The translations under genes and the position numbers were made by a program. The notes beneath the pieces were generated by a model that was not told where the DNA came from, searched no databases, and saw only the letters and a program-made list of their open reading frames with translations. Shown one piece after another: positions 10,993 to 57,410 of a stretch of DNA of 64,000 bases. The stretch is from Owenia fusiformis (taxonomy: Eukaryota; Annelida; Polychaeta; Sabellida; Oweniidae): positions 41,881,366 through 41,945,365 of the forward strand of contig CAIIXF020000001.1 in assembly GCA_903813345.2 (NCBI GenBank), in the 5' to 3' direction. Position 1 is the first letter of the stretch; the number at the start of each line of letters is the position of its first letter.

Positions 10993-11110
10993 TTTTCCGA
11001 AATTTCACATGTGGCGGAAGTACTTTAAAATGTCACGAGCTTTACGGACTGAATAAATCACTTCTTTTATTTTGTTTAGGTAGAAAGCAACTTACTTTTT
11101 CACCCATTGG
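10993..11110 (-). promoter_or_regulatory. Presumed NOG1 promoter and 5' UTR, running into the satellite edge
   Basis: Unique sequence upstream of the start codon spans only 10993-11079. It contains an E-box palindrome CACATGTG (11006-11013) directly next to an ETS-type site, ACTTCCGC on the minus strand (11014-11021). ETS sites near the start are common in housekeeping and ribosome-biogenesis promoters. The first satellite module adds a minus-strand CCAAT at 11106-11110, about 115 bp from the ATG. The transcription start cannot be read from sequence. The promoter role is inferred from position and motifs. Confidence 0.5.
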
Positions 11111-11552
11111 AATACATGTAAAATTGGCAAAGTTCAAATCATAATTTCTCAAATCCCAGCCCATCGAATCCTCACATCCATTCAGATCATGTAGTCCTAT
11201 TCAAAAACTTCCCGTTCGGTTATATGGTGAAAAAAATATCCCACGAACGAAAAAAGATTTTGCTACATTTATAAGCGAGCATTGATTTCTGGGCCTGTAA
11301 AAAGCACGTAGGACCTGATTACCCCATTGATTTACTGAGACCGCCAAAAATTTAATTCAATTTTTTGGTTCAAAATAATAATCTGTCAGCGGTCCCTGAC
11401 ACTCCTACTAGCTATCACCAAACATTAATTGCCAATACATGTACACATATACGTGCCATACATCTACAAAGTAGCGAACTAGTGTATTAAGTACTACTTT
11501 TCCTATACGATGAGCAAAACAAATCTCAAGTAGGTTATATTGACCCTATTAG
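11080..11552. repeat. Satellite module X (first copy)
   Basis: 473 bp, from GTAGAAAGCAACTTAC to ATATTGACCCTATTAG. Its last six bases, TATTAG, equal the last six of module Y, so X lies between two TATTAG hexamers wherever it follows Y. It contains ATTTTGCTACATTTAT (11257-11272), the exact inverse of a Y segment. No terminal inverted repeats and no TG...CA ends are visible. Confidence 0.95.
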
Positions 11553-12417
11553 TGTCATGGTTGACTGAATATGCATTTTATTCAATATGAATTTTAAAGT
11601 TCGGGGTTTTATGAAGTGATATGTACATTTTTGCTCAAATCCCCTCAGCACTTTTGATTCTATAGGGTTCTCTTGACCCCTGGGGTCATTATATTTTGTG
11701 ACAATTTATTCCAGACTAAATGTAGTTATTTTGTCATTAAAATATCTTATTAGAGAAACGTTCAGGAAAAGTTGCGCTATCCACAAGACTTCTTGTCACT
11801 GCACTGATAAATGTAGCAAAATAGTCAAAATAATTCAGCCTTGAGCATGAAATTTTTGAATTTTTGGACAAATTTTGGGCTATTTTGGGGGATTTTTGCC
11901 CATAACGATACTAATCTACTTAAAACAGCTGTTTAAAGTTGTACAAATTGCTTAAGTGATTTATATTCTCTCATAAGTAGGACTATTTGCTACTTTACTA
12001 AACTGAACATCATTGATTTTTCGTTTTTCATGAACTTCTGATGGCTAGTTCAAGTAGCATTGTCTTTTGTGCAGGTTTACTGAATACGTCCCTTTAAAAT
12101 TGGGTCTTTCGTGGGTTTAAAGGGTCAAAATGTTGGAACTTTGCACACTGTGGAACGTTTGGGGTGTGTTTCCTTTAATTTGGCAAGAACTGCATCAAAT
12201 TACTTGATAAGAGAGCAGAAATGTAGCAACTTAGGCTGAAAAGTACTGTTTTCAATGAAAAAACGAAAATTGCTGACTCAGCAAAATTTAGATCGTCGTC
12301 TCCAGAATTTTAGGGGTTAATTTGCAAAACTTTAAATGGTCCCATAGAAACATATGCGAAATATGGCTAAATTCGACATATTTCTCGAAATTCACTAATA
12401 AATGTGGTTGATATTAG
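11553..12417. repeat. Satellite module Y (first copy)
   Basis: 865 bp, from TGTCATGGTTGACTGAATAT to GTGGTTGATATTAG. It holds a dyad GACCCCTGGGGTC (11675-11687), ATAAATGTAGCAAAAT (11807-11822, the inverse of a module X segment), a related GAAATGTAGCAA near 12219, and a hairpin GAAATATG/CATATTTC (12358-12384). No coding potential is seen. Confidence 0.95.
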
Positions 12418-15400
12418 GTAGAAAGCAACTTACTTTTTCACCCATTGGAATACATGTAAAATTGGCAAAGTTCAAATCATAATTTCTCAAATCCCAGCCC
12501 ATCGAATCCTCACATCCATTCAGATCATGTAGTCCTATTCAAAAACTTCCCGTTCGGTTATATGGTGAAAAAAATATCCCACGAACGAAAAAAGATTTTG
12601 CTACATTTATAAGCGAGCATTGATTTCTGGGCCTGTAAAAAGCACGTAGGACCTGATTACCCCATTGATTTACTGAGACCGCCAAAAATTTAATTCAATT
12701 TTTTGGTTCAAAATAATAATCTGTCAGCGGTCCCTGACACTCCTACTAGCTATCACCAAACATTAATTGCCAATACATGTACACATATACGTGCCATACA
12801 TCTACAAAGTAGCGAACTAGTGTATTAAGTACTACTTTTCCTATACGATGAGCAAAACAAATCTCAAGTAGGTTATATTGACCCTATTAGTGTCATGGTT
12901 GACTGAATATGCATTTTATTCAATATGAATTTTAAAGTTCGGGGTTTTATGAAGTGATATGTACATTTTTGCTCAAATCCCCTCAGCACTTTTGATTCTA
13001 TAGGGTTCTCTTGACCCCTGGGGTCATTATATTTTGTGACAATTTATTCCAGACTAAATGTAGTTATTTTGTCATTAAAATATCTTATTAGAGAAACGTT
13101 CAGGAAAAGTTGCGCTATCCACAAGACTTCTTGTCACTGCACTGATAAATGTAGCAAAATAGTCAAAATAATTCAGCCTTGAGCATGAAATTTTTGAATT
13201 TTTGGACAAATTTTGGGCTATTTTGGGGGATTTTTGCCCATAACGATACTAATCTACTTAAAACAGCTGTTTAAAGTTGTACAAATTGCTTAAGTGATTT
13301 ATATTCTCTCATAAGTAGGACTATTTGCTACTTTACTAAACTGAACATCATTGATTTTTCGTTTTTCATGAACTTCTGATGGCTAGTTCAAGTAGCATTG
13401 TCTTTTGTGCAGGTTTACTGAATACGTCCCTTTAAAATTGGGTCTTTCGTGGGTTTAAAGGGTCAAAATGTTGGAACTTTGCACACTGTGGAACGTTTGG
13501 GGTGTGTTTCCTTTAATTTGGCAAGAACTGCATCAAATTACTTGATAAGAGAGCAGAAATGTAGCAACTTAGGCTGAAAAGTACTGTTTTCAATGAAAAA
13601 ACGAAAATTGCTGACTCAGCAAAATTTAGATCGTCGTCTCCAGAATTTTAGGGGTTAATTTGCAAAACTTTAAATGGTCCCATAGAAACATATGCGAAAT
13701 ATGGCTAAATTCGACATATTTCTCGAAATTCACTAATAAATGTGGTTGATATTAGTGTCATGGTTGACTGAATATGCATTTTATTCAATATGAATTTTAA
13801 AGTTCGGGGTTTTATGAAGTGATATGTACATTTTTGCTCAAATCCCCTCAGCACTTTTGATTCTATAGGGTTCTCTTGACCCCTGGGGTCATTATATTTT
13901 GTGACAATTTATTCCAGACTAAATGTAGTTATTTTGTCATTAAAATATCTTATTAGAGAAACGTTCAGGAAAAGTTGCGCTATCCACAAGACTTCTTGTC
14001 ACTGCACTGATAAATGTAGCAAAATAGTCAAAATAATTCAGCCTTGAGCATGAAATTTTTGAATTTTTGGACAAATTTTGGGCTATTTTGGGGGATTTTT
14101 GCCCATAACGATACTAATCTACTTAAAACAGCTGTTTAAAGTTGTACAAATTGCTTAAGTGATTTATATTCTCTCATAAGTAGGACTATTTGCTACTTTA
14201 CTAAACTGAACATCATTGATTTTTCGTTTTTCATGAACTTCTGATGGCTAGTTCAAGTAGCATTGTCTTTTGTGCAGGTTTACTGAATACGTCCCTTTAA
14301 AATTGGGTCTTTCGTGGGTTTAAAGGGTCAAAATGTTGGAACTTTGCACACTGTGGAACGTTTGGGGTGTGTTTCCTTTAATTTGGCAAGAACTGCATCA
14401 AATTACTTGATAAGAGAGCAGAAATGTAGCAACTTAGGCTGAAAAGTACTGTTTTCAATGAAAAAACGAAAATTGCTGACTCAGCAAAATTTAGATCGTC
14501 GTCTCCAGAATTTTAGGGGTTAATTTGCAAAACTTTAAATGGTCCCATAGAAACATATGCGAAATATGGCTAAATTCGACATATTTCTCGAAATTCACTA
14601 ATAAATGTGGTTGATATTAGTGTCATGGTTGACTGAATATGCATTTTATTCAATATGAATTTTAAAGTTCGGGGTTTTATGAAGTGATATGTACATTTTT
14701 GCTCAAATCCCCTCAGCACTTTTGATTCTATAGGGTTCTCTTGACCCCTGGGGTCATTATATTTTGTGACAATTTATTCCAGACTAAATGTAGTTATTTT
14801 GTCATTAAAATATCTTATTAGAGAAACGTTCAGGAAAAGTTGCGCTATCCACAAGACTTCTTGTCACTGCACTGATAAATGTAGCAAAATAGTCAAAATA
14901 ATTCAGCCTTGAGCATGAAATTTTTGAATTTTTGGACAAATTTTGGGCTATTTTGGGGGATTTTTGCCCATAACGATACTAATCTACTTAAAACAGCTGT
15001 TTAAAGTTGTACAAATTGCTTAAGTGATTTATATTCTCTCATAAGTAGGACTATTTGCTACTTTACTAAACTGAACATCATTGATTTTTCGTTTTTCATG
15101 AACTTCTGATGGCTAGTTCAAGTAGCATTGTCTTTTGTGCAGGTTTACTGAATACGTCCCTTTAAAATTGGGTCTTTCGTGGGTTTAAAGGGTCAAAATG
15201 TTGGAACTTTGCACACTGTGGAACGTTTGGGGTGTGTTTCCTTTAATTTGGCAAGAACTGCATCAAATTACTTGATAAGAGAGCAGAAATGTAGCAACTT
15301 AGGCTGAAAAGTACTGTTTTCAATGAAAAAACGAAAATTGCTGACTCAGCAAAATTTAGATCGTCGTCTCCAGAATTTTAGGGGTTAATTTGCAAAACTT

Positions 15401-18400
15401 TAAATGGTCCCATAGAAACATATGCGAAATATGGCTAAATTCGACATATTTCTCGAAATTCACTAATAAATGTGGTTGATATTAGTGTCATGGTTGACTG
15501 AATATGCATTTTATTCAATATGAATTTTAAAGTTCGGGGTTTTATGAAGTGATATGTACATTTTTGCTCAAATCCCCTCAGCACTTTTGATTCTATAGGG
15601 TTCTCTTGACCCCTGGGGTCATTATATTTTGTGACAATTTATTCCAGACTAAATGTAGTTATTTTGTCATTAAAATATCTTATTAGAGAAACGTTCAGGA
15701 AAAGTTGCGCTATCCACAAGACTTCTTGTCACTGCACTGATAAATGTAGCAAAATAGTCAAAATAATTCAGCCTTGAGCATGAAATTTTTGAATTTTTGG
15801 ACAAATTTTGGGCTATTTTGGGGGATTTTTGCCCATAACGATACTAATCTACTTAAAACAGCTGTTTAAAGTTGTACAAATTGCTTAAGTGATTTATATT
15901 CTCTCATAAGTAGGACTATTTGCTACTTTACTAAACTGAACATCATTGATTTTTCGTTTTTCATGAACTTCTGATGGCTAGTTCAAGTAGCATTGTCTTT
16001 TGTGCAGGTTTACTGAATACGTCCCTTTAAAATTGGGTCTTTCGTGGGTTTAAAGGGTCAAAATGTTGGAACTTTGCACACTGTGGAACGTTTGGGGTGT
16101 GTTTCCTTTAATTTGGCAAGAACTGCATCAAATTACTTGATAAGAGAGCAGAAATGTAGCAACTTAGGCTGAAAAGTACTGTTTTCAATGAAAAAACGAA
16201 AATTGCTGACTCAGCAAAATTTAGATCGTCGTCTCCAGAATTTTAGGGGTTAATTTGCAAAACTTTAAATGGTCCCATAGAAACATATGCGAAATATGGC
16301 TAAATTCGACATATTTCTCGAAATTCACTAATAAATGTGGTTGATATTAGGTAGAAAGCAACTTACTTTTTCACCCATTGGAATACATGTAAAATTGGCA
16401 AAGTTCAAATCATAATTTCTCAAATCCCAGCCCATCGAATCCTCACATCCATTCAGATCATGTAGTCCTATTCAAAAACTTCCCGTTCGGTTATATGGTG
16501 AAAAAAATATCCCACGAACGAAAAAAGATTTTGCTACATTTATAAGCGAGCATTGATTTCTGGGCCTGTAAAAAGCACGTAGGACCTGATTACCCCATTG
16601 ATTTACTGAGACCGCCAAAAATTTAATTCAATTTTTTGGTTCAAAATAATAATCTGTCAGCGGTCCCTGACACTCCTACTAGCTATCACCAAACATTAAT
16701 TGCCAATACATGTACACATATACGTGCCATACATCTACAAAGTAGCGAACTAGTGTATTAAGTACTACTTTTCCTATACGATGAGCAAAACAAATCTCAA
16801 GTAGGTTATATTGACCCTATTAGTGTCATGGTTGACTGAATATGCATTTTATTCAATATGAATTTTAAAGTTCGGGGTTTTATGAAGTGATATGTACATT
16901 TTTGCTCAAATCCCCTCAGCACTTTTGATTCTATAGGGTTCTCTTGACCCCTGGGGTCATTATATTTTGTGACAATTTATTCCAGACTAAATGTAGTTAT
17001 TTTGTCATTAAAATATCTTATTAGAGAAACGTTCAGGAAAAGTTGCGCTATCCACAAGACTTCTTGTCACTGCACTGATAAATGTAGCAAAATAGTCAAA
17101 ATAATTCAGCCTTGAGCATGAAATTTTTGAATTTTTGGACAAATTTTGGGCTATTTTGGGGGATTTTTGCCCATAACGATACTAATCTACTTAAAACAGC
17201 TGTTTAAAGTTGTACAAATTGCTTAAGTGATTTATATTCTCTCATAAGTAGGACTATTTGCTACTTTACTAAACTGAACATCATTGATTTTTCGTTTTTC
17301 ATGAACTTCTGATGGCTAGTTCAAGTAGCATTGTCTTTTGTGCAGGTTTACTGAATACGTCCCTTTAAAATTGGGTCTTTCGTGGGTTTAAAGGGTCAAA
17401 ATGTTGGAACTTTGCACACTGTGGAACGTTTGGGGTGTGTTTCCTTTAATTTGGCAAGAACTGCATCAAATTACTTGATAAGAGAGCAGAAATGTAGCAA
17501 CTTAGGCTGAAAAGTACTGTTTTCAATGAAAAAACGAAAATTGCTGACTCAGCAAAATTTAGATCGTCGTCTCCAGAATTTTAGGGGTTAATTTGCAAAA
17601 CTTTAAATGGTCCCATAGAAACATATGCGAAATATGGCTAAATTCGACATATTTCTCGAAATTCACTAATAAATGTGGTTGATATTAGTGTCATGGTTGA
17701 CTGAATATGCATTTTATTCAATATGAATTTTAAAGTTCGGGGTTTTATGAAGTGATATGTACATTTTTGCTCAAATCCCCTCAGCACTTTTGATTCTATA
17801 GGGTTCTCTTGACCCCTGGGGTCATTATATTTTGTGACAATTTATTCCAGACTAAATGTAGTTATTTTGTCATTAAAATATCTTATTAGAGAAACGTTCA
17901 GGAAAAGTTGCGCTATCCACAAGACTTCTTGTCACTGCACTGATAAATGTAGCAAAATAGTCAAAATAATTCAGCCTTGAGCATGAAATTTTTGAATTTT
18001 TGGACAAATTTTGGGCTATTTTGGGGGATTTTTGCCCATAACGATACTAATCTACTTAAAACAGCTGTTTAAAGTTGTACAAATTGCTTAAGTGATTTAT
18101 ATTCTCTCATAAGTAGGACTATTTGCTACTTTACTAAACTGAACATCATTGATTTTTCGTTTTTCATGAACTTCTGATGGCTAGTTCAAGTAGCATTGTC
18201 TTTTGTGCAGGTTTACTGAATACGTCCCTTTAAAATTGGGTCTTTCGTGGGTTTAAAGGGTCAAAATGTTGGAACTTTGCACACTGTGGAACGTTTGGGG
18301 TGTGTTTCCTTTAATTTGGCAAGAACTGCATCAAATTACTTGATAAGAGAGCAGAAATGTAGCAACTTAGGCTGAAAAGTACTGTTTTCAATGAAAAAAC

Positions 18401-21400
18401 GAAAATTGCTGACTCAGCAAAATTTAGATCGTCGTCTCCAGAATTTTAGGGGTTAATTTGCAAAACTTTAAATGGTCCCATAGAAACATATGCGAAATAT
18501 GGCTAAATTCGACATATTTCTCGAAATTCACTAATAAATGTGGTTGATATTAGTGTCATGGTTGACTGAATATGCATTTTATTCAATATGAATTTTAAAG
18601 TTCGGGGTTTTATGAAGTGATATGTACATTTTTGCTCAAATCCCCTCAGCACTTTTGATTCTATAGGGTTCTCTTGACCCCTGGGGTCATTATATTTTGT
18701 GACAATTTATTCCAGACTAAATGTAGTTATTTTGTCATTAAAATATCTTATTAGAGAAACGTTCAGGAAAAGTTGCGCTATCCACAAGACTTCTTGTCAC
18801 TGCACTGATAAATGTAGCAAAATAGTCAAAATAATTCAGCCTTGAGCATGAAATTTTTGAATTTTTGGACAAATTTTGGGCTATTTTGGGGGATTTTTGC
18901 CCATAACGATACTAATCTACTTAAAACAGCTGTTTAAAGTTGTACAAATTGCTTAAGTGATTTATATTCTCTCATAAGTAGGACTATTTGCTACTTTACT
19001 AAACTGAACATCATTGATTTTTCGTTTTTCATGAACTTCTGATGGCTAGTTCAAGTAGCATTGTCTTTTGTGCAGGTTTACTGAATACGTCCCTTTAAAA
19101 TTGGGTCTTTCGTGGGTTTAAAGGGTCAAAATGTTGGAACTTTGCACACTGTGGAACGTTTGGGGTGTGTTTCCTTTAATTTGGCAAGAACTGCATCAAA
19201 TTACTTGATAAGAGAGCAGAAATGTAGCAACTTAGGCTGAAAAGTACTGTTTTCAATGAAAAAACGAAAATTGCTGACTCAGCAAAATTTAGATCGTCGT
19301 CTCCAGAATTTTAGGGGTTAATTTGCAAAACTTTAAATGGTCCCATAGAAACATATGCGAAATATGGCTAAATTCGACATATTTCTCGAAATTCACTAAT
19401 AAATGTGGTTGATATTAGGTAGAAAGCAACTTACTTTTTCACCCATTGGAATACATGTAAAATTGGCAAAGTTCAAATCATAATTTCTCAAATCCCAGCC
19501 CATCGAATCCTCACATCCATTCAGATCATGTAGTCCTATTCAAAAACTTCCCGTTCGGTTATATGGTGAAAAAAATATCCCACGAACGAAAAAAGATTTT
19601 GCTACATTTATAAGCGAGCATTGATTTCTGGGCCTGTAAAAAGCACGTAGGACCTGATTACCCCATTGATTTACTGAGACCGCCAAAAATTTAATTCAAT
19701 TTTTTGGTTCAAAATAATAATCTGTCAGCGGTCCCTGACACTCCTACTAGCTATCACCAAACATTAATTGCCAATACATGTACACATATACGTGCCATAC
19801 ATCTACAAAGTAGCGAACTAGTGTATTAAGTACTACTTTTCCTATACGATGAGCAAAACAAATCTCAAGTAGGTTATATTGACCCTATTAGTGTCATGGT
19901 TGACTGAATATGCATTTTATTCAATATGAATTTTAAAGTTCGGGGTTTTATGAAGTGATATGTACATTTTTGCTCAAATCCCCTCAGCACTTTTGATTCT
20001 ATAGGGTTCTCTTGACCCCTGGGGTCATTATATTTTGTGACAATTTATTCCAGACTAAATGTAGTTATTTTGTCATTAAAATATCTTATTAGAGAAACGT
20101 TCAGGAAAAGTTGCGCTATCCACAAGACTTCTTGTCACTGCACTGATAAATGTAGCAAAATAGTCAAAATAATTCAGCCTTGAGCATGAAATTTTTGAAT
20201 TTTTGGACAAATTTTGGGCTATTTTGGGGGATTTTTGCCCATAACGATACTAATCTACTTAAAACAGCTGTTTAAAGTTGTACAAATTGCTTAAGTGATT
20301 TATATTCTCTCATAAGTAGGACTATTTGCTACTTTACTAAACTGAACATCATTGATTTTTCGTTTTTCATGAACTTCTGATGGCTAGTTCAAGTAGCATT
20401 GTCTTTTGTGCAGGTTTACTGAATACGTCCCTTTAAAATTGGGTCTTTCGTGGGTTTAAAGGGTCAAAATGTTGGAACTTTGCACACTGTGGAACGTTTG
20501 GGGTGTGTTTCCTTTAATTTGGCAAGAACTGCATCAAATTACTTGATAAGAGAGCAGAAATGTAGCAACTTAGGCTGAAAAGTACTGTTTTCAATGAAAA
20601 AACGAAAATTGCTGACTCAGCAAAATTTAGATCGTCGTCTCCAGAATTTTAGGGGTTAATTTGCAAAACTTTAAATGGTCCCATAGAAACATATGCGAAA
20701 TATGGCTAAATTCGACATATTTCTCGAAATTCACTAATAAATGTGGTTGATATTAGGTAGAAAGCAACTTACTTTTTCACCCATTGGAATACATGTAAAA
20801 TTGGCAAAGTTCAAATCATAATTTCTCAAATCCCAGCCCATCGAATCCTCACATCCATTCAGATCATGTAGTCCTATTCAAAAACTTCCCGTTCGGTTAT
20901 ATGGTGAAAAAAATATCCCACGAACGAAAAAAGATTTTGCTACATTTATAAGCGAGCATTGATTTCTGGGCCTGTAAAAAGCACGTAGGACCTGATTACC
21001 CCATTGATTTACTGAGACCGCCAAAAATTTAATTCAATTTTTTGGTTCAAAATAATAATCTGTCAGCGGTCCCTGACACTCCTACTAGCTATCACCAAAC
21101 ATTAATTGCCAATACATGTACACATATACGTGCCATACATCTACAAAGTAGCGAACTAGTGTATTAAGTACTACTTTTCCTATACGATGAGCAAAACAAA
21201 TCTCAAGTAGGTTATATTGACCCTATTAGTGTCATGGTTGACTGAATATGCATTTTATTCAATATGAATTTTAAAGTTCGGGGTTTTATGAAGTGATATG
21301 TACATTTTTGCTCAAATCCCCTCAGCACTTTTGATTCTATAGGGTTCTCTTGACCCCTGGGGTCATTATATTTTGTGACAATTTATTCCAGACTAAATGT

Positions 21401-24400
21401 AGTTATTTTGTCATTAAAATATCTTATTAGAGAAACGTTCAGGAAAAGTTGCGCTATCCACAAGACTTCTTGTCACTGCACTGATAAATGTAGCAAAATA
21501 GTCAAAATAATTCAGCCTTGAGCATGAAATTTTTGAATTTTTGGACAAATTTTGGGCTATTTTGGGGGATTTTTGCCCATAACGATACTAATCTACTTAA
21601 AACAGCTGTTTAAAGTTGTACAAATTGCTTAAGTGATTTATATTCTCTCATAAGTAGGACTATTTGCTACTTTACTAAACTGAACATCATTGATTTTTCG
21701 TTTTTCATGAACTTCTGATGGCTAGTTCAAGTAGCATTGTCTTTTGTGCAGGTTTACTGAATACGTCCCTTTAAAATTGGGTCTTTCGTGGGTTTAAAGG
21801 GTCAAAATGTTGGAACTTTGCACACTGTGGAACGTTTGGGGTGTGTTTCCTTTAATTTGGCAAGAACTGCATCAAATTACTTGATAAGAGAGCAGAAATG
21901 TAGCAACTTAGGCTGAAAAGTACTGTTTTCAATGAAAAAACGAAAATTGCTGACTCAGCAAAATTTAGATCGTCGTCTCCAGAATTTTAGGGGTTAATTT
22001 GCAAAACTTTAAATGGTCCCATAGAAACATATGCGAAATATGGCTAAATTCGACATATTTCTCGAAATTCACTAATAAATGTGGTTGATATTAGGTAGAA
22101 AGCAACTTACTTTTTCACCCATTGGAATACATGTAAAATTGGCAAAGTTCAAATCATAATTTCTCAAATCCCAGCCCATCGAATCCTCACATCCATTCAG
22201 ATCATGTAGTCCTATTCAAAAACTTCCCGTTCGGTTATATGGTGAAAAAAATATCCCACGAACGAAAAAAGATTTTGCTACATTTATAAGCGAGCATTGA
22301 TTTCTGGGCCTGTAAAAAGCACGTAGGACCTGATTACCCCATTGATTTACTGAGACCGCCAAAAATTTAATTCAATTTTTTGGTTCAAAATAATAATCTG
22401 TCAGCGGTCCCTGACACTCCTACTAGCTATCACCAAACATTAATTGCCAATACATGTACACATATACGTGCCATACATCTACAAAGTAGCGAACTAGTGT
22501 ATTAAGTACTACTTTTCCTATACGATGAGCAAAACAAATCTCAAGTAGGTTATATTGACCCTATTAGTGTCATGGTTGACTGAATATGCATTTTATTCAA
22601 TATGAATTTTAAAGTTCGGGGTTTTATGAAGTGATATGTACATTTTTGCTCAAATCCCCTCAGCACTTTTGATTCTATAGGGTTCTCTTGACCCCTGGGG
22701 TCATTATATTTTGTGACAATTTATTCCAGACTAAATGTAGTTATTTTGTCATTAAAATATCTTATTAGAGAAACGTTCAGGAAAAGTTGCGCTATCCACA
22801 AGACTTCTTGTCACTGCACTGATAAATGTAGCAAAATAGTCAAAATAATTCAGCCTTGAGCATGAAATTTTTGAATTTTTGGACAAATTTTGGGCTATTT
22901 TGGGGGATTTTTGCCCATAACGATACTAATCTACTTAAAACAGCTGTTTAAAGTTGTACAAATTGCTTAAGTGATTTATATTCTCTCATAAGTAGGACTA
23001 TTTGCTACTTTACTAAACTGAACATCATTGATTTTTCGTTTTTCATGAACTTCTGATGGCTAGTTCAAGTAGCATTGTCTTTTGTGCAGGTTTACTGAAT
23101 ACGTCCCTTTAAAATTGGGTCTTTCGTGGGTTTAAAGGGTCAAAATGTTGGAACTTTGCACACTGTGGAACGTTTGGGGTGTGTTTCCTTTAATTTGGCA
23201 AGAACTGCATCAAATTACTTGATAAGAGAGCAGAAATGTAGCAACTTAGGCTGAAAAGTACTGTTTTCAATGAAAAAACGAAAATTGCTGACTCAGCAAA
23301 ATTTAGATCGTCGTCTCCAGAATTTTAGGGGTTAATTTGCAAAACTTTAAATGGTCCCATAGAAACATATGCGAAATATGGCTAAATTCGACATATTTCT
23401 CGAAATTCACTAATAAATGTGGTTGATATTAGTGTCATGGTTGACTGAATATGCATTTTATTCAATATGAATTTTAAAGTTCGGGGTTTTATGAAGTGAT
23501 ATGTACATTTTTGCTCAAATCCCCTCAGCACTTTTGATTCTATAGGGTTCTCTTGACCCCTGGGGTCATTATATTTTGTGACAATTTATTCCAGACTAAA
23601 TGTAGTTATTTTGTCATTAAAATATCTTATTAGAGAAACGTTCAGGAAAAGTTGCGCTATCCACAAGACTTCTTGTCACTGCACTGATAAATGTAGCAAA
23701 ATAGTCAAAATAATTCAGCCTTGAGCATGAAATTTTTGAATTTTTGGACAAATTTTGGGCTATTTTGGGGGATTTTTGCCCATAACGATACTAATCTACT
23801 TAAAACAGCTGTTTAAAGTTGTACAAATTGCTTAAGTGATTTATATTCTCTCATAAGTAGGACTATTTGCTACTTTACTAAACTGAACATCATTGATTTT
23901 TCGTTTTTCATGAACTTCTGATGGCTAGTTCAAGTAGCATTGTCTTTTGTGCAGGTTTACTGAATACGTCCCTTTAAAATTGGGTCTTTCGTGGGTTTAA
24001 AGGGTCAAAATGTTGGAACTTTGCACACTGTGGAACGTTTGGGGTGTGTTTCCTTTAATTTGGCAAGAACTGCATCAAATTACTTGATAAGAGAGCAGAA
24101 ATGTAGCAACTTAGGCTGAAAAGTACTGTTTTCAATGAAAAAACGAAAATTGCTGACTCAGCAAAATTTAGATCGTCGTCTCCAGAATTTTAGGGGTTAA
24201 TTTGCAAAACTTTAAATGGTCCCATAGAAACATATGCGAAATATGGCTAAATTCGACATATTTCTCGAAATTCACTAATAAATGTGGTTGATATTAGGTA
24301 GAAAGCAACTTACTTTTTCACCCATTGGAATACATGTAAAATTGGCAAAGTTCAAATCATAATTTCTCAAATCCCAGCCCATCGAATCCTCACATCCATT

Positions 24401-45400: not shown

Positions 45401-48400
45401 TTATATTCTCTCATAAGTAGGACTATTTGCTACTTTACTAAACTGAACATCATTGATTTTTCGTTTTTCATGAACTTCTGATGGCTAGTTCAAGTAGCAT
45501 TGTCTTTTGTGCAGGTTTACTGAATACGTCCCTTTAAAATTGGGTCTTTCGTGGGTTTAAAGGGTCAAAATGTTGGAACTTTGCACACTGTGGAACGTTT
45601 GGGGTGTGTTTCCTTTAATTTGGCAAGAACTGCATCAAATTACTTGATAAGAGAGCAGAAATGTAGCAACTTAGGCTGAAAAGTACTGTTTTCAATGAAA
45701 AAACGAAAATTGCTGACTCAGCAAAATTTAGATCGTCGTCTCCAGAATTTTAGGGGTTAATTTGCAAAACTTTAAATGGTCCCATAGAAACATATGCGAA
45801 ATATGGCTAAATTCGACATATTTCTCGAAATTCACTAATAAATGTGGTTGATATTAGTGTCATGGTTGACTGAATATGCATTTTATTCAATATGAATTTT
45901 AAAGTTCGGGGTTTTATGAAGTGATATGTACATTTTTGCTCAAATCCCCTCAGCACTTTTGATTCTATAGGGTTCTCTTGACCCCTGGGGTCATTATATT
46001 TTGTGACAATTTATTCCAGACTAAATGTAGTTATTTTGTCATTAAAATATCTTATTAGAGAAACGTTCAGGAAAAGTTGCGCTATCCACAAGACTTCTTG
46101 TCACTGCACTGATAAATGTAGCAAAATAGTCAAAATAATTCAGCCTTGAGCATGAAATTTTTGAATTTTTGGACAAATTTTGGGCTATTTTGGGGGATTT
46201 TTGCCCATAACGATACTAATCTACTTAAAACAGCTGTTTAAAGTTGTACAAATTGCTTAAGTGATTTATATTCTCTCATAAGTAGGACTATTTGCTACTT
46301 TACTAAACTGAACATCATTGATTTTTCGTTTTTCATGAACTTCTGATGGCTAGTTCAAGTAGCATTGTCTTTTGTGCAGGTTTACTGAATACGTCCCTTT
46401 AAAATTGGGTCTTTCGTGGGTTTAAAGGGTCAAAATGTTGGAACTTTGCACACTGTGGAACGTTTGGGGTGTGTTTCCTTTAATTTGGCAAGAACTGCAT
46501 CAAATTACTTGATAAGAGAGCAGAAATGTAGCAACTTAGGCTGAAAAGTACTGTTTTCAATGAAAAAACGAAAATTGCTGACTCAGCAAAATTTAGATCG
46601 TCGTCTCCAGAATTTTAGGGGTTAATTTGCAAAACTTTAAATGGTCCCATAGAAACATATGCGAAATATGGCTAAATTCGACATATTTCTCGAAATTCAC
46701 TAATAAATGTGGTTGATATTAGGTAGAAAGCAACTTACTTTTTCACCCATTGGAATACATGTAAAATTGGCAAAGTTCAAATCATAATTTCTCAAATCCC
46801 AGCCCATCGAATCCTCACATCCATTCAGATCATGTAGTCCTATTCAAAAACTTCCCGTTCGGTTATATGGTGAAAAAAATATCCCACGAACGAAAAAAGA
46901 TTTTGCTACATTTATAAGCGAGCATTGATTTCTGGGCCTGTAAAAAGCACGTAGGACCTGATTACCCCATTGATTTACTGAGACCGCCAAAAATTTAATT
47001 CAATTTTTTGGTTCAAAATAATAATCTGTCAGCGGTCCCTGACACTCCTACTAGCTATCACCAAACATTAATTGCCAATACATGTACACATATACGTGCC
47101 ATACATCTACAAAGTAGCGAACTAGTGTATTAAGTACTACTTTTCCTATACGATGAGCAAAACAAATCTCAAGTAGGTTATATTGACCCTATTAGTGTCA
47201 TGGTTGACTGAATATGCATTTTATTCAATATGAATTTTAAAGTTCGGGGTTTTATGAAGTGATATGTACATTTTTGCTCAAATCCCCTCAGCACTTTTGA
47301 TTCTATAGGGTTCTCTTGACCCCTGGGGTCATTATATTTTGTGACAATTTATTCCAGACTAAATGTAGTTATTTTGTCATTAAAATATCTTATTAGAGAA
47401 ACGTTCAGGAAAAGTTGCGCTATCCACAAGACTTCTTGTCACTGCACTGATAAATGTAGCAAAATAGTCAAAATAATTCAGCCTTGAGCATGAAATTTTT
47501 GAATTTTTGGACAAATTTTGGGCTATTTTGGGGGATTTTTGCCCATAACGATACTAATCTACTTAAAACAGCTGTTTAAAGTTGTACAAATTGCTTAAGT
47601 GATTTATATTCTCTCATAAGTAGGACTATTTGCTACTTTACTAAACTGAACATCATTGATTTTTCGTTTTTCATGAACTTCTGATGGCTAGTTCAAGTAG
47701 CATTGTCTTTTGTGCAGGTTTACTGAATACGTCCCTTTAAAATTGGGTCTTTCGTGGGTTTAAAGGGTCAAAATGTTGGAACTTTGCACACTGTGGAACG
47801 TTTGGGGTGTGTTTCCTTTAATTTGGCAAGAACTGCATCAAATTACTTGATAAGAGAGCAGAAATGTAGCAACTTAGGCTGAAAAGTACTGTTTTCAATG
47901 AAAAAACGAAAATTGCTGACTCAGCAAAATTTAGATCGTCGTCTCCAGAATTTTAGGGGTTAATTTGCAAAACTTTAAATGGTCCCATAGAAACATATGC
48001 GAAATATGGCTAAATTCGACATATTTCTCGAAATTCACTAATAAATGTGGTTGATATTAGTGTCATGGTTGACTGAATATGCATTTTATTCAATATGAAT
48101 TTTAAAGTTCGGGGTTTTATGAAGTGATATGTACATTTTTGCTCAAATCCCCTCAGCACTTTTGATTCTATAGGGTTCTCTTGACCCCTGGGGTCATTAT
48201 ATTTTGTGACAATTTATTCCAGACTAAATGTAGTTATTTTGTCATTAAAATATCTTATTAGAGAAACGTTCAGGAAAAGTTGCGCTATCCACAAGACTTC
48301 TTGTCACTGCACTGATAAATGTAGCAAAATAGTCAAAATAATTCAGCCTTGAGCATGAAATTTTTGAATTTTTGGACAAATTTTGGGCTATTTTGGGGGA

Positions 48401-51400
48401 TTTTTGCCCATAACGATACTAATCTACTTAAAACAGCTGTTTAAAGTTGTACAAATTGCTTAAGTGATTTATATTCTCTCATAAGTAGGACTATTTGCTA
48501 CTTTACTAAACTGAACATCATTGATTTTTCGTTTTTCATGAACTTCTGATGGCTAGTTCAAGTAGCATTGTCTTTTGTGCAGGTTTACTGAATACGTCCC
48601 TTTAAAATTGGGTCTTTCGTGGGTTTAAAGGGTCAAAATGTTGGAACTTTGCACACTGTGGAACGTTTGGGGTGTGTTTCCTTTAATTTGGCAAGAACTG
48701 CATCAAATTACTTGATAAGAGAGCAGAAATGTAGCAACTTAGGCTGAAAAGTACTGTTTTCAATGAAAAAACGAAAATTGCTGACTCAGCAAAATTTAGA
48801 TCGTCGTCTCCAGAATTTTAGGGGTTAATTTGCAAAACTTTAAATGGTCCCATAGAAACATATGCGAAATATGGCTAAATTCGACATATTTCTCGAAATT
48901 CACTAATAAATGTGGTTGATATTAGTGTCATGGTTGACTGAATATGCATTTTATTCAATATGAATTTTAAAGTTCGGGGTTTTATGAAGTGATATGTACA
49001 TTTTTGCTCAAATCCCCTCAGCACTTTTGATTCTATAGGGTTCTCTTGACCCCTGGGGTCATTATATTTTGTGACAATTTATTCCAGACTAAATGTAGTT
49101 ATTTTGTCATTAAAATATCTTATTAGAGAAACGTTCAGGAAAAGTTGCGCTATCCACAAGACTTCTTGTCACTGCACTGATAAATGTAGCAAAATAGTCA
49201 AAATAATTCAGCCTTGAGCATGAAATTTTTGAATTTTTGGACAAATTTTGGGCTATTTTGGGGGATTTTTGCCCATAACGATACTAATCTACTTAAAACA
49301 GCTGTTTAAAGTTGTACAAATTGCTTAAGTGATTTATATTCTCTCATAAGTAGGACTATTTGCTACTTTACTAAACTGAACATCATTGATTTTTCGTTTT
49401 TCATGAACTTCTGATGGCTAGTTCAAGTAGCATTGTCTTTTGTGCAGGTTTACTGAATACGTCCCTTTAAAATTGGGTCTTTCGTGGGTTTAAAGGGTCA
49501 AAATGTTGGAACTTTGCACACTGTGGAACGTTTGGGGTGTGTTTCCTTTAATTTGGCAAGAACTGCATCAAATTACTTGATAAGAGAGCAGAAATGTAGC
49601 AACTTAGGCTGAAAAGTACTGTTTTCAATGAAAAAACGAAAATTGCTGACTCAGCAAAATTTAGATCGTCGTCTCCAGAATTTTAGGGGTTAATTTGCAA
49701 AACTTTAAATGGTCCCATAGAAACATATGCGAAATATGGCTAAATTCGACATATTTCTCGAAATTCACTAATAAATGTGGTTGATATTAGGTAGAAAGCA
49801 ACTTACTTTTTCACCCATTGGAATACATGTAAAATTGGCAAAGTTCAAATCATAATTTCTCAAATCCCAGCCCATCGAATCCTCACATCCATTCAGATCA
49901 TGTAGTCCTATTCAAAAACTTCCCGTTCGGTTATATGGTGAAAAAAATATCCCACGAACGAAAAAAGATTTTGCTACATTTATAAGCGAGCATTGATTTC
50001 TGGGCCTGTAAAAAGCACGTAGGACCTGATTACCCCATTGATTTACTGAGACCGCCAAAAATTTAATTCAATTTTTTGGTTCAAAATAATAATCTGTCAG
50101 CGGTCCCTGACACTCCTACTAGCTATCACCAAACATTAATTGCCAATACATGTACACATATACGTGCCATACATCTACAAAGTAGCGAACTAGTGTATTA
50201 AGTACTACTTTTCCTATACGATGAGCAAAACAAATCTCAAGTAGGTTATATTGACCCTATTAGTGTCATGGTTGACTGAATATGCATTTTATTCAATATG
50301 AATTTTAAAGTTCGGGGTTTTATGAAGTGATATGTACATTTTTGCTCAAATCCCCTCAGCACTTTTGATTCTATAGGGTTCTCTTGACCCCTGGGGTCAT
50401 TATATTTTGTGACAATTTATTCCAGACTAAATGTAGTTATTTTGTCATTAAAATATCTTATTAGAGAAACGTTCAGGAAAAGTTGCGCTATCCACAAGAC
50501 TTCTTGTCACTGCACTGATAAATGTAGCAAAATAGTCAAAATAATTCAGCCTTGAGCATGAAATTTTTGAATTTTTGGACAAATTTTGGGCTATTTTGGG
50601 GGATTTTTGCCCATAACGATACTAATCTACTTAAAACAGCTGTTTAAAGTTGTACAAATTGCTTAAGTGATTTATATTCTCTCATAAGTAGGACTATTTG
50701 CTACTTTACTAAACTGAACATCATTGATTTTTCGTTTTTCATGAACTTCTGATGGCTAGTTCAAGTAGCATTGTCTTTTGTGCAGGTTTACTGAATACGT
50801 CCCTTTAAAATTGGGTCTTTCGTGGGTTTAAAGGGTCAAAATGTTGGAACTTTGCACACTGTGGAACGTTTGGGGTGTGTTTCCTTTAATTTGGCAAGAA
50901 CTGCATCAAATTACTTGATAAGAGAGCAGAAATGTAGCAACTTAGGCTGAAAAGTACTGTTTTCAATGAAAAAACGAAAATTGCTGACTCAGCAAAATTT
51001 AGATCGTCGTCTCCAGAATTTTAGGGGTTAATTTGCAAAACTTTAAATGGTCCCATAGAAACATATGCGAAATATGGCTAAATTCGACATATTTCTCGAA
51101 ATTCACTAATAAATGTGGTTGATATTAGTGTCATGGTTGACTGAATATGCATTTTATTCAATATGAATTTTAAAGTTCGGGGTTTTATGAAGTGATATGT
51201 ACATTTTTGCTCAAATCCCCTCAGCACTTTTGATTCTATAGGGTTCTCTTGACCCCTGGGGTCATTATATTTTGTGACAATTTATTCCAGACTAAATGTA
51301 GTTATTTTGTCATTAAAATATCTTATTAGAGAAACGTTCAGGAAAAGTTGCGCTATCCACAAGACTTCTTGTCACTGCACTGATAAATGTAGCAAAATAG

Positions 51401-54400
51401 TCAAAATAATTCAGCCTTGAGCATGAAATTTTTGAATTTTTGGACAAATTTTGGGCTATTTTGGGGGATTTTTGCCCATAACGATACTAATCTACTTAAA
51501 ACAGCTGTTTAAAGTTGTACAAATTGCTTAAGTGATTTATATTCTCTCATAAGTAGGACTATTTGCTACTTTACTAAACTGAACATCATTGATTTTTCGT
51601 TTTTCATGAACTTCTGATGGCTAGTTCAAGTAGCATTGTCTTTTGTGCAGGTTTACTGAATACGTCCCTTTAAAATTGGGTCTTTCGTGGGTTTAAAGGG
51701 TCAAAATGTTGGAACTTTGCACACTGTGGAACGTTTGGGGTGTGTTTCCTTTAATTTGGCAAGAACTGCATCAAATTACTTGATAAGAGAGCAGAAATGT
51801 AGCAACTTAGGCTGAAAAGTACTGTTTTCAATGAAAAAACGAAAATTGCTGACTCAGCAAAATTTAGATCGTCGTCTCCAGAATTTTAGGGGTTAATTTG
51901 CAAAACTTTAAATGGTCCCATAGAAACATATGCGAAATATGGCTAAATTCGACATATTTCTCGAAATTCACTAATAAATGTGGTTGATATTAGTGTCATG
52001 GTTGACTGAATATGCATTTTATTCAATATGAATTTTAAAGTTCGGGGTTTTATGAAGTGATATGTACATTTTTGCTCAAATCCCCTCAGCACTTTTGATT
52101 CTATAGGGTTCTCTTGACCCCTGGGGTCATTATATTTTGTGACAATTTATTCCAGACTAAATGTAGTTATTTTGTCATTAAAATATCTTATTAGAGAAAC
52201 GTTCAGGAAAAGTTGCGCTATCCACAAGACTTCTTGTCACTGCACTGATAAATGTAGCAAAATAGTCAAAATAATTCAGCCTTGAGCATGAAATTTTTGA
52301 ATTTTTGGACAAATTTTGGGCTATTTTGGGGGATTTTTGCCCATAACGATACTAATCTACTTAAAACAGCTGTTTAAAGTTGTACAAATTGCTTAAGTGA
52401 TTTATATTCTCTCATAAGTAGGACTATTTGCTACTTTACTAAACTGAACATCATTGATTTTTCGTTTTTCATGAACTTCTGATGGCTAGTTCAAGTAGCA
52501 TTGTCTTTTGTGCAGGTTTACTGAATACGTCCCTTTAAAATTGGGTCTTTCGTGGGTTTAAAGGGTCAAAATGTTGGAACTTTGCACACTGTGGAACGTT
52601 TGGGGTGTGTTTCCTTTAATTTGGCAAGAACTGCATCAAATTACTTGATAAGAGAGCAGAAATGTAGCAACTTAGGCTGAAAAGTACTGTTTTCAATGAA
52701 AAAACGAAAATTGCTGACTCAGCAAAATTTAGATCGTCGTCTCCAGAATTTTAGGGGTTAATTTGCAAAACTTTAAATGGTCCCATAGAAACATATGCGA
52801 AATATGGCTAAATTCGACATATTTCTCGAAATTCACTAATAAATGTGGTTGATATTAGGTAGAAAGCAACTTACTTTTTCACCCATTGGAATACATGTAA
52901 AATTGGCAAAGTTCAAATCATAATTTCTCAAATCCCAGCCCATCGAATCCTCACATCCATTCAGATCATGTAGTCCTATTCAAAAACTTCCCGTTCGGTT
53001 ATATGGTGAAAAAAATATCCCACGAACGAAAAAAGATTTTGCTACATTTATAAGCGAGCATTGATTTCTGGGCCTGTAAAAAGCACGTAGGACCTGATTA
53101 CCCCATTGATTTACTGAGACCGCCAAAAATTTAATTCAATTTTTTGGTTCAAAATAATAATCTGTCAGCGGTCCCTGACACTCCTACTAGCTATCACCAA
53201 ACATTAATTGCCAATACATGTACACATATACGTGCCATACATCTACAAAGTAGCGAACTAGTGTATTAAGTACTACTTTTCCTATACGATGAGCAAAACA
53301 AATCTCAAGTAGGTTATATTGACCCTATTAGTGTCATGGTTGACTGAATATGCATTTTATTCAATATGAATTTTAAAGTTCGGGGTTTTATGAAGTGATA
53401 TGTACATTTTTGCTCAAATCCCCTCAGCACTTTTGATTCTATAGGGTTCTCTTGACCCCTGGGGTCATTATATTTTGTGACAATTTATTCCAGACTAAAT
53501 GTAGTTATTTTGTCATTAAAATATCTTATTAGAGAAACGTTCAGGAAAAGTTGCGCTATCCACAAGACTTCTTGTCACTGCACTGATAAATGTAGCAAAA
53601 TAGTCAAAATAATTCAGCCTTGAGCATGAAATTTTTGAATTTTTGGACAAATTTTGGGCTATTTTGGGGGATTTTTGCCCATAACGATACTAATCTACTT
53701 AAAACAGCTGTTTAAAGTTGTACAAATTGCTTAAGTGATTTATATTCTCTCATAAGTAGGACTATTTGCTACTTTACTAAACTGAACATCATTGATTTTT
53801 CGTTTTTCATGAACTTCTGATGGCTAGTTCAAGTAGCATTGTCTTTTGTGCAGGTTTACTGAATACGTCCCTTTAAAATTGGGTCTTTCGTGGGTTTAAA
53901 GGGTCAAAATGTTGGAACTTTGCACACTGTGGAACGTTTGGGGTGTGTTTCCTTTAATTTGGCAAGAACTGCATCAAATTACTTGATAAGAGAGCAGAAA
54001 TGTAGCAACTTAGGCTGAAAAGTACTGTTTTCAATGAAAAAACGAAAATTGCTGACTCAGCAAAATTTAGATCGTCGTCTCCAGAATTTTAGGGGTTAAT
54101 TTGCAAAACTTTAAATGGTCCCATAGAAACATATGCGAAATATGGCTAAATTCGACATATTTCTCGAAATTCACTAATAAATGTGGTTGATATTAGGTAG
54201 AAAGCAACTTACTTTTTCACCCATTGGAATACATGTAAAATTGGCAAAGTTCAAATCATAATTTCTCAAATCCCAGCCCATCGAATCCTCACATCCATTC
54301 AGATCATGTAGTCCTATTCAAAAACTTCCCGTTCGGTTATATGGTGAAAAAAATATCCCACGAACGAAAAAAGATTTTGCTACATTTATAAGCGAGCATT

Positions 54401-56867
54401 GATTTCTGGGCCTGTAAAAAGCACGTAGGACCTGATTACCCCATTGATTTACTGAGACCGCCAAAAATTTAATTCAATTTTTTGGTTCAAAATAATAATC
54501 TGTCAGCGGTCCCTGACACTCCTACTAGCTATCACCAAACATTAATTGCCAATACATGTACACATATACGTGCCATACATCTACAAAGTAGCGAACTAGT
54601 GTATTAAGTACTACTTTTCCTATACGATGAGCAAAACAAATCTCAAGTAGGTTATATTGACCCTATTAGTGTCATGGTTGACTGAATATGCATTTTATTC
54701 AATATGAATTTTAAAGTTCGGGGTTTTATGAAGTGATATGTACATTTTTGCTCAAATCCCCTCAGCACTTTTGATTCTATAGGGTTCTCTTGACCCCTGG
54801 GGTCATTATATTTTGTGACAATTTATTCCAGACTAAATGTAGTTATTTTGTCATTAAAATATCTTATTAGAGAAACGTTCAGGAAAAGTTGCGCTATCCA
54901 CAAGACTTCTTGTCACTGCACTGATAAATGTAGCAAAATAGTCAAAATAATTCAGCCTTGAGCATGAAATTTTTGAATTTTTGGACAAATTTTGGGCTAT
55001 TTTGGGGGATTTTTGCCCATAACGATACTAATCTACTTAAAACAGCTGTTTAAAGTTGTACAAATTGCTTAAGTGATTTATATTCTCTCATAAGTAGGAC
55101 TATTTGCTACTTTACTAAACTGAACATCATTGATTTTTCGTTTTTCATGAACTTCTGATGGCTAGTTCAAGTAGCATTGTCTTTTGTGCAGGTTTACTGA
55201 ATACGTCCCTTTAAAATTGGGTCTTTCGTGGGTTTAAAGGGTCAAAATGTTGGAACTTTGCACACTGTGGAACGTTTGGGGTGTGTTTCCTTTAATTTGG
55301 CAAGAACTGCATCAAATTACTTGATAAGAGAGCAGAAATGTAGCAACTTAGGCTGAAAAGTACTGTTTTCAATGAAAAAACGAAAATTGCTGACTCAGCA
55401 AAATTTAGATCGTCGTCTCCAGAATTTTAGGGGTTAATTTGCAAAACTTTAAATGGTCCCATAGAAACATATGCGAAATATGGCTAAATTCGACATATTT
55501 CTCGAAATTCACTAATAAATGTGGTTGATATTAGTGTCATGGTTGACTGAATATGCATTTTATTCAATATGAATTTTAAAGTTCGGGGTTTTATGAAGTG
55601 ATATGTACATTTTTGCTCAAATCCCCTCAGCACTTTTGATTCTATAGGGTTCTCTTGACCCCTGGGGTCATTATATTTTGTGACAATTTATTCCAGACTA
55701 AATGTAGTTATTTTGTCATTAAAATATCTTATTAGAGAAACGTTCAGGAAAAGTTGCGCTATCCACAAGACTTCTTGTCACTGCACTGATAAATGTAGCA
55801 AAATAGTCAAAATAATTCAGCCTTGAGCATGAAATTTTTGAATTTTTGGACAAATTTTGGGCTATTTTGGGGGATTTTTGCCCATAACGATACTAATCTA
55901 CTTAAAACAGCTGTTTAAAGTTGTACAAATTGCTTAAGTGATTTATATTCTCTCATAAGTAGGACTATTTGCTACTTTACTAAACTGAACATCATTGATT
56001 TTTCGTTTTTCATGAACTTCTGATGGCTAGTTCAAGTAGCATTGTCTTTTGTGCAGGTTTACTGAATACGTCCCTTTAAAATTGGGTCTTTCGTGGGTTT
56101 AAAGGGTCAAAATGTTGGAACTTTGCACACTGTGGAACGTTTGGGGTGTGTTTCCTTTAATTTGGCAAGAACTGCATCAAATTACTTGATAAGAGAGCAG
56201 AAATGTAGCAACTTAGGCTGAAAAGTACTGTTTTCAATGAAAAAACGAAAATTGCTGACTCAGCAAAATTTAGATCGTCGTCTCCAGAATTTTAGGGGTT
56301 AATTTGCAAAACTTTAAATGGTCCCATAGAAACATATGCGAAATATGGCTAAATTCGACATATTTCTCGAAATTCACTAATAAATGTGGTTGATATTAGG
56401 TAGAAAGCAACTTACTTTTTCACCCATTGGAATACATGTAAAATTGGCAAAGTTCAAATCATAATTTCTCAAATCCCAGCCCATCGAATCCTCACATCCA
56501 TTCAGATCATGTAGTCCTATTCAAAAACTTCCCGTTCGGTTATATGGTGAAAAAAATATCCCACGAACGAAAAAAGATTTTGCTACATTTATAAGCGAGC
56601 ATTGATTTCTGGGCCTGTAAAAAGCACGTAGGACCTGATTACCCCATTGATTTACTGAGACCGCCAAAAATTTAATTCAATTTTTTGGTTCAAAATAATA
56701 ATCTGTCAGCGGTCCCTGACACTCCTACTAGCTATCACCAAACATTAATTGCCAATACATGTACACATATACGTGCCATACATCTACAAAGTAGCGAACT
56801 AGTGTATTAAGTACTACTTTTCCTATACGATGAGCAAAACAAATCTCAAGTAGGTTATATTGACCCT

Positions 56868-57410
56868 TAGTCATTATATCCACGAGCTGTTATATCTTAG
56901 CGCATATTTATGTATTCAATATTTCATATTTTTATTACAGAGTGAGAAAAAATATTATTGGTAAATTAACTTTGCTACTAGAGGTTTTTAGATTTTTTAC
57001 TGGTATTACTCCACTATTAATCCGCTCGGTAGAATGAACACCACTATTATTAGAAAAAATAATTTGTCGGAATTCTTTCATTGATTTAATAAACTGAAGC
57101 GTCTGGATGATATATAAAAATTGCATTGTTAATCTAATCAATATTTTAAGATGATAGGTTTAGAATTAGGCTTATATAAATTATGATCATTTTTGTGAAA
57201 AAATGATCATTTCTTTCCATTTGTCGTGGTTTCTAGAAGGTTTGAGTTATCTCGTTCCAAGACTATCTCTACGTTCTAGTCTTGCGAACGTCTTATTCTT
57301 TTGTCTGTACGATTACAACATGGGGGAATTTTCTACGCTACTTACACTTAAGATACCTATTTCAATAGATTCCTTGGTATTTTAGCATTCTTTTTGTGTA
57401 GTTGAATCCA
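56868..57410. other. Right flank of satellite array, no gene seen
   Basis: AT-rich DNA beginning TTAGTCATTATATCC (the first T overlaps the array end). Around 56906-56935 it has GCATATTTATG and TATTCAATAT, which loosely echo the start of module Y (GCATTTTATTCAATAT), so a decayed Y fragment is possible. A perfect hairpin of ATGATCATTTTT and AAAAATGATCAT lies at 57183-57210. Short open frames on both strands have no recognisable content. Confidence 0.5.

Follow-up and report, generated by a model that had tools for sequence, protein, structure and literature searches.

We analysed a stretch of 64,000 nucleotides from the annelid Owenia fusiformis (GenBank assembly GCA_903813345.2, contig CAIIXF020000001.1, forward strand positions 41,881,366 to 41,945,365), which we call the window and number from its first letter. 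Most of it is occupied by an array of 45,788 bp (window positions 11079–56866), which a preliminary description had taken for a satellite made of two modules, X and Y, in irregular order. We find instead that the array is one multimeric transposon insertion with a target duplication, namely a single non-autonomous insertion of the KolobokP type of DNA transposon (Kojima & Bao 2022, Mob DNA 13:24, PMC9587614) that has multiplied in place and has repeatedly lost one of its modules; it is very large, very young and of a known kind. In this anatomy X is the long terminal direct repeat (LTDR) and Y the internal segment (INT), and the whole multimer, read on the forward strand, contains 20 LTDRs and 42 INTs. 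It is bounded by TTA on the left (11076–11078) and on the right (56867–56869), the two copies of a 3-bp target site duplication.

Make-up of the array

The array has X at both ends and can be written as X(Y^n X)x19. The numbers of Y after successive X (1,4,3,1,1,2,3,1,4,1,3,2,3,2,2,3,3,1,2) reproduce exactly the string of the preliminary description, with its two modules, 42 Y and 20 X; we agree that there is no regular higher-order period, and inside this array it is true that Y is obligatory and X optional. The module sizes given there, 865 bp for Y and 473 bp for X, are real as spacings, and we confirm spacings of 865 and 1338 bp; the biological ends, however, give a Y of 870 bp (TATTA...TATTA) and an X of 468 bp (GGTAGAAAG...TTGACCC). 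The 865-bp spacing arises because adjacent Y have one 5-bp TATTA in common, and the 473-bp spacing because it comprises X and one TATTA.

All modules lie on the forward strand. X1 (11079–11546, 468 bp) is followed by a single Y, the first of the array (11547–12416, 870 bp with TATTA at either end), and X2 (12417–12884) by a run of four Y (12885–16349) that contains the earliest Y-Y junction, where a lone TATTA (13750–13754) stands in place of the absent X. Three Y follow X3 (16350–16817), one follows each of X4 (19418–19885) and X5 (20756–21223), and two follow X6 (22094–22561); X7 (24297–24764) precedes three, one of which has an extra A, X8 (27366–27833) precedes one and X9 (28704–29171) four. 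The single Y after X10 (32637–33104) has an extra A, as has one of the three after X11 (33976–34443). Thereafter come X12 (37045–37512) with two Y, X13 (39248–39715) with three, X14 (42316–42783) and X15 (44519–44986) with two each, X16 (46722–47189) and X17 (49790–50257) with three each, X18 (52858–53325) with one and X19 (54196–54663) with two, and X20 (56399–56866), the final LTDR, closes the insertion. The 20 X are all identical, and so are 39 of the 42 Y, numbers 14, 21 and 24 differing solely by the one extra A in an A-run. The longest exact DNA repeat within the array is 8,345 bp. No stop-to-stop open reading frame (ORF) of at least 80 residues is present in it, and the family is therefore non-autonomous; a search for known structured RNAs gave no Rfam match at gathering scores and no tRNA.

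Insertion ends and relatives in the same genome

The preliminary description had proposed a genome-wide search for the two modules, and we made it over the 498-Mb assembly (525 contigs). A pattern for the X ends, with at most two mismatches, gave 247 matches and a Y pattern gave 250, the first ~100 places of each being listed. X does occur without Y: among the matches listed, 9 of the first 20 X sites fetched are solo X with both ends, the others being interrupted, partial or joined to Y. The genome also holds X-Y-X monomers (LTDR-INT-LTDR, 1806 bp), a 4X-3Y tandem, an X-Y-Y-X, an X-X-X trimer, and four further long arrays, on C1, C5, C7 and C9 (read whole or partly), of which the C1 array is ~63 kb long with 64 Y by spacing. 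The earlier statement that X never follows X thus describes the window correctly but fails for the genome, where X-X junctions and the X-X-X trimer are found.

An exact 3-bp duplication abuts the outer X ends in every one of the 15 insertions of several modules that were read at both outer ends (L033–L038, L040–L042, L063, L064, the window array and those at C1:17.6 Mb, C7 and C5:37 Mb; the right-hand X of L041 and L042 is partial with its right end intact). This count omits L026, L039 and L043, in which an end is missing, interrupted or unread, and the C9 array, whose ends were unread. The duplicated sequence is TTA four times, TCA twice, and ACA, ACT, TAA, GTA, GAA, AAA, CAT, ATT and ATA once each. 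Solo X with both ends are flanked by a 3-bp repeat in eight of nine cases, L013 being without one (interrupted X were not scored). These duplications show that what moves as one unit is everything between the left terminus of the first X and the right terminus of the last, whatever the number of modules enclosed. An ordinary non-mobile satellite that acquired two unit lengths by chance deletion would share the homogeneity and in-place growth of the array, which are satellite-like, but it is contradicted by the dispersal of X and X-Y-X over many chromosomes with 3-bp duplications where both ends were read (L013 excepted), and we give it practically no credence.

In seven of seven monomers or small multimers in which both X were read, the pair is near identical. 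On this ground we reject a composite in which X had inserted twice, independently, on either side of a genomic Y. As a separate observation, foreign inserts recur at a few positions of X, at ~188 (L027, L028, L029), ~350 (L037, L039) and ~112 (L030, L031), and the five inserts compared (L027–L031) have no mutual similarity.

Kojima & Bao describe KolobokP LTDRs of ~450 or 660 bp with ends 5'-RR...YY-3' and 11–18 bp perfect or imperfect inverted repeats, and target duplications of 3–4 (or 4–5) bp (PMC9587614). The 468-bp X at both ends of X-Y-X belongs with the ~450-bp class, while the nuclease-bearing relatives in this genome have LTDRs of 470, 459 and 653/655 bp; the X termini are GG...CC, the same as in the autonomous LTDR, and with the 3-bp duplications they agree with the published ends and duplication length. 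Solo LTDRs, duplication-flanked (LTDR-INT)n multimers and INT-INT junctions with a single tip occur in both systems, as does the placing of a DDE transposase and a His-Me (I-PpoI-like) nuclease on opposite strands between LTDRs, seen here in loci L062 and L067.

The nuclease profile PF05551 has 54 matches in the genome. At one of these, L062 (in a stretch of contig C313), an autonomous element has 470-bp LTDRs that are homologous to X (E 1.7e-13; identity at 305 of 448 aligned positions; alignment score 369, the best of 200 shuffles scoring 214.5), and its INT encodes two proteins on opposite strands, a 691-residue transposase (PF20700, E 2.7e-45) and a 125-residue His-Me nuclease (PF05551, E 9.9e-10; I-PpoI weakly, E 0.037). 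L067 has LTDRs of 653/655 bp, a transposase of 668 residues and a nuclease of 199, and the nuclease-bearing L069 an LTDR of 459 bp and the duplication GAT; the LTDRs of these two gave no match to X or Y, and the nuclease locus L068 has no direct repeats longer than 60 bp. Autonomous KolobokP elements also form arrays, on the unplaced contigs C313, C513, C443 and C418, in which the presence of the LTDR is irregular: INT spacings are ~3346 bp where it is absent, ~3821 bp where it is present and, once, 4295 bp with two LTDRs. Nuclease matches are regularly spaced over ~58 kb of C313 and ~46 kb of C513, ORFs having been read in the L062 stretch of C313 alone.

Within the two LTDRs, which are otherwise 68% identical, a 22-bp block, ACTACTTTTCCTATACGATGAG, is the same at X 415–436 and autonomous LTDR 417–438 and is a candidate protein-binding or cutting site. 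A separate idea, based on a likeness between the start of X plus the adjoining tip, TATTAGGTAG, and a portion of the I-PpoI site (CTCTCTTAAGGTAGC, PMC6294500), was dropped, as the nuclease-bearing L069 starts with GAATATAG.

Terminal direct repeats, solo repeats, repeat sharing in tandem and near-identical repeats at each locus would equally be found in a small long terminal repeat (LTR) retrotransposon, or terminal-repeat retrotransposon in miniature (TRIM), arranged in tandem. LTR retrotransposons have TG...CA ends and duplicate 4–6 bp of target, and a primer-binding site and a polypurine tract adjoin their repeats. X, by contrast, has GG...CC ends and a 3-bp duplication, inspection of the Y ends by eye revealed no primer-binding or polypurine tract beside X, and a retroelement origin, which we regard as scarcely credible, is contradicted by the finding that X is homologous to the LTDRs of an element with a DDE transposase. 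The likeness to tandem TRIMs such as Wukong of maize (PMC4528315) lies in direct repeats that permit unequal exchange and in tandem copies that share a repeat; the TRIM is a retroelement, and X differs from it in its ends, its duplication length and its DDE-element homology.

Loss of X at a 5-bp repeat

In an intact X-Y repeat TATTA stands on each side of X, whereas Y-Y junctions genome-wide hold exactly one TATTA in 93 of 93 cases. These were sought with exact flanks and 0–14 bases allowed between them, a search that diverged junctions could escape, and they lie at six places (49 at C1:17.6 Mb, 23 in the window, 14 at C5:37 Mb, three each on C7 and C9 and one on C8). The tips of the autonomous family differ from one another, TAATA on the left and TATTA on the right, and its INT-INT junctions (exact flanks) have one tip in 20 of 20 cases, 12 of them TAATA and 8 TATTA, with both kinds mixed inside C313 and inside C513. 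Unless the tips were mixed by conversion or mutation, X has therefore been lost more than once in the autonomous arrays. Junctions of X with X are rare, two in each family (both non-autonomous ones in one insertion), and each has exactly one 5-bp tip. A 5-bp repeat is present at the INT tips of the window family and of the three nuclease-bearing families read, in one of them imperfectly, although the target duplications of these families measure 3–4 bp where read. One candidate route, in which a microhomology deletion inside X leaves its last 5 bp at the Y-Y junction, is ruled out, since the junction holds a single TATTA; the idea had rested on an anchor matching 19 of the 42 Y.

The junctions fit both a deletion between 5-bp repeats and an excision by transposase. 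Ordinary deletion between the 5-bp direct repeats that flank every X (TATTA/TATTA or TAATA/TATTA), with no part for a transposase, is a serious contender for this step, to which we assign somewhat less than an even chance. The 12 TAATA and 8 TATTA outcomes are as expected if crossovers fell now to the left and now to the right of the mismatched central base, the same rule covers the X-X junctions with one 5-bp tip as losses of INT, and the 5-bp spacer differs from the 3-bp length of the target duplication. Such a deletion does not, however, readily account for Y-Y junctions being commoner than X-X junctions (93 against 2, which are copies and not events; by insertion the ratio is ~6 to 1, a weak argument), 5 bases are very short for a host deletion, and Kojima & Bao liken one-sided footprints in another species to those of IS3/IS256 (PMC9587614). 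In the non-autonomous family, Y-Y junctions at ~6 places against X-X junctions at one lean weakly towards a process specific to X.

A bolder proposal, which we hold doubtful, is that LTDR and INT in this genome are detachable cassettes always set exactly 5 bp apart. The transposase would repeatedly excise X together with one of its 5-bp flanks, in the manner of bacterial copy-out elements, and rejoin it as X-5bp-X; the X/Y strings would then be a live ledger of excisions, and the I-PpoI-like nuclease, by cuts within LTDRs or at them, would make the arrays grow. Bacterial composite transposons and IS3/IS256 copy-out elements (as treated in PMC9587614) offer parallels, in that the outer ends set the mobile unit, end-modules may be lost or solo, and X-5bp-X recalls abutted ends with a spacer; they differ in that the spacer here is 5 bp against a 3-bp duplication, the circle is only hypothetical and the host is eukaryotic. 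Our 5-bp tips also differ from the micro-deletions of 3–4 bp described for KolobokP in PMC9587614.

Growth in place and proposed origin

Position 684 of Y is C in all 42 copies of the window array and T in the other loci read that cover the site, and an exact 27-mer that includes this C has 42 matches in the genome, all of them in the window array. The C7 array has private bases of its own in four of four Y read; in L038 the three tandem Y share one sequence, which differs from the window Y at 15 of 870 sites. The arrays thus grew in place, each from its own founder. There are no substitutions among the window units over ~45.7 kb, which implies either recent growth or constant homogenisation; on a star tree, with rates assumed to lie between 1e-9 and 1e-8 per site per generation, the mean depth of the array lies below roughly 66,000 to 6,600 generations.

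We infer that this growth took place by unequal exchange or repair among the identical repeats. Circles of X-Y integrated by homologous recombination into a resident solo X, a route proposed by Kojima & Bao (PMC9587614), would likewise preserve the 3-bp duplication and leave X at both ends, yet they predict frequent chimeric outer X, whereas paired X are near identical in all seven loci (with tree support that is mostly weak) and in the window no difference separates the outer X from the inner ones. Because all 42 Y carry the private base, circles from other loci gave nothing to the present array, and we consider circle integration an unlikely route.

That the assembler made up the number or order of copies might be suspected, since the units are identical and the string was taken from one assembly, but exact TTA stands at both edges, the strings of the arrays on C1, C5, C7 and C9 are different, and private bases mark both the window array and that on C7. 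Common long reads are longer than 8,345 bp. Long reads could therefore have resolved the window array, given its longest exact repeat, and we think an artefact very improbable.

The X/Y string had been proposed as a record of how the array grew. It does carry information, the longest exact repeat being 8,345 bp, but it also records the loss of X from an ancestral X-Y repeat. Its longest repeated substring has 12 symbols, against a mean of 13.0 in 400 random strings, and its runs vary in length somewhat less than those of random compositions (P for a variance no greater than observed, 0.020; 5000 compositions). Reading the string as a record of block duplications was tried and rejected, as the four arrays examined show no excess of repeated substrings (P 0.70, 0.45, 0.77 and 0.12). 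We read the window string as a mixture of in-place duplication and repeated loss of X with no decodable series of block duplications. The share of missing X depends strongly on the array (23/41, 49/63, 3/21 and 14/19), and within the C1 array (C1:17637642–17700573) Y runs are mostly 5–12 in the left part and 1–3 in the right, with means of 6.4 for the first eight runs and 1.9 for the last seven (permutation P 0.0009, exploratory only, the split having been picked post hoc).

The explanation that we favour, at a probability of about 0.9 for the whole, is a single KolobokP insertion followed by growth in place and a parallel loss of LTDRs. One non-autonomous element (LTDR-INT-LTDR, 1806 bp) would have inserted between a NOG1-like gene and a T-box gene, creating the TTA duplication, and would have expanded in place to (LTDR-INT)n-LTDR, most simply by the exchange or repair named above. 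Meanwhile LTDRs would have dropped out between INTs, one 5-bp TATTA tip staying behind each time, and amplification of two units, intact X-Y at 1338 bp and Y without X at 865 bp, would have produced the irregular string. The transposase, and perhaps a nuclease that provokes exchange, would have been supplied in trans by autonomous KolobokP relatives of the same genome.

Several observations weigh against this explanation. The copy order of the window array comes from one assembly. What is lost with X comprises one 5-bp tip, against a target duplication of 3 bp, so the loss is no simple mirror of insertion. Of the 17 positions in the inverted ends of X only 10 match (a value reached by 75 of 20,000 shuffles, with the length picked after the sequence had been seen), against 14 of 17 in the autonomous LTDR. 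One of 23 inner branches is well supported in the tree that pairs X by locus. None of the 10 nuclease loci cut out, of 54 in all, yielded a nuclease- or transposase-bearing element whose LTDR is nearly the same as X, and a comparison of Y with the autonomous INT gave nothing at E 1e-3. Finally, the transposase is identified by its match to PF20700, a profile that Pfam labels 'Mutator-like', and its place among Kolobok transposases is putative.

The window is a case of a DNA transposon that has become a satellite-scale array between two genes, by growth in place from one founding insertion. Whereas PMC9587614 names at most 4 abutted INTs, there are 42 INTs in 45.8 kb here and 64 in ~63 kb on C1, and the words satellite and LTDR-LTDR are absent from its main text, whereas an X-X-X trimer is present in this genome. 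As far as that text shows, four things are additions to what is known of KolobokP: arrays of satellite size, a trimer made of LTDRs alone, a spacing of exactly 5 bp at all Y-Y and X-X junctions found, and private bases as evidence for growth in place. With so little else to tell the units apart, the X/Y string is a clean barcode; comparing it between individuals would show directly how fast the array grows and how fast LTDRs are lost, and would put to the test the induced-unequal-crossover model proposed for KolobokP, which its authors describe as still awaiting experiment (PMC9587614).

To the left of the array, minus-strand ORFs match NOG1 (PF17835, PF06858), and to its right a plus-strand ORF has a 27-residue T-box match (PF00907, E 5.5e-07). 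The left flank also contains a degenerate tandem repeat at 9854–10382, with periods given as 39, 78 and 151 bp, and, between the NOG1-like ORFs at 4875–6784, a possibly intronic 31-bp minisatellite of ~62 copies with 98% matches.

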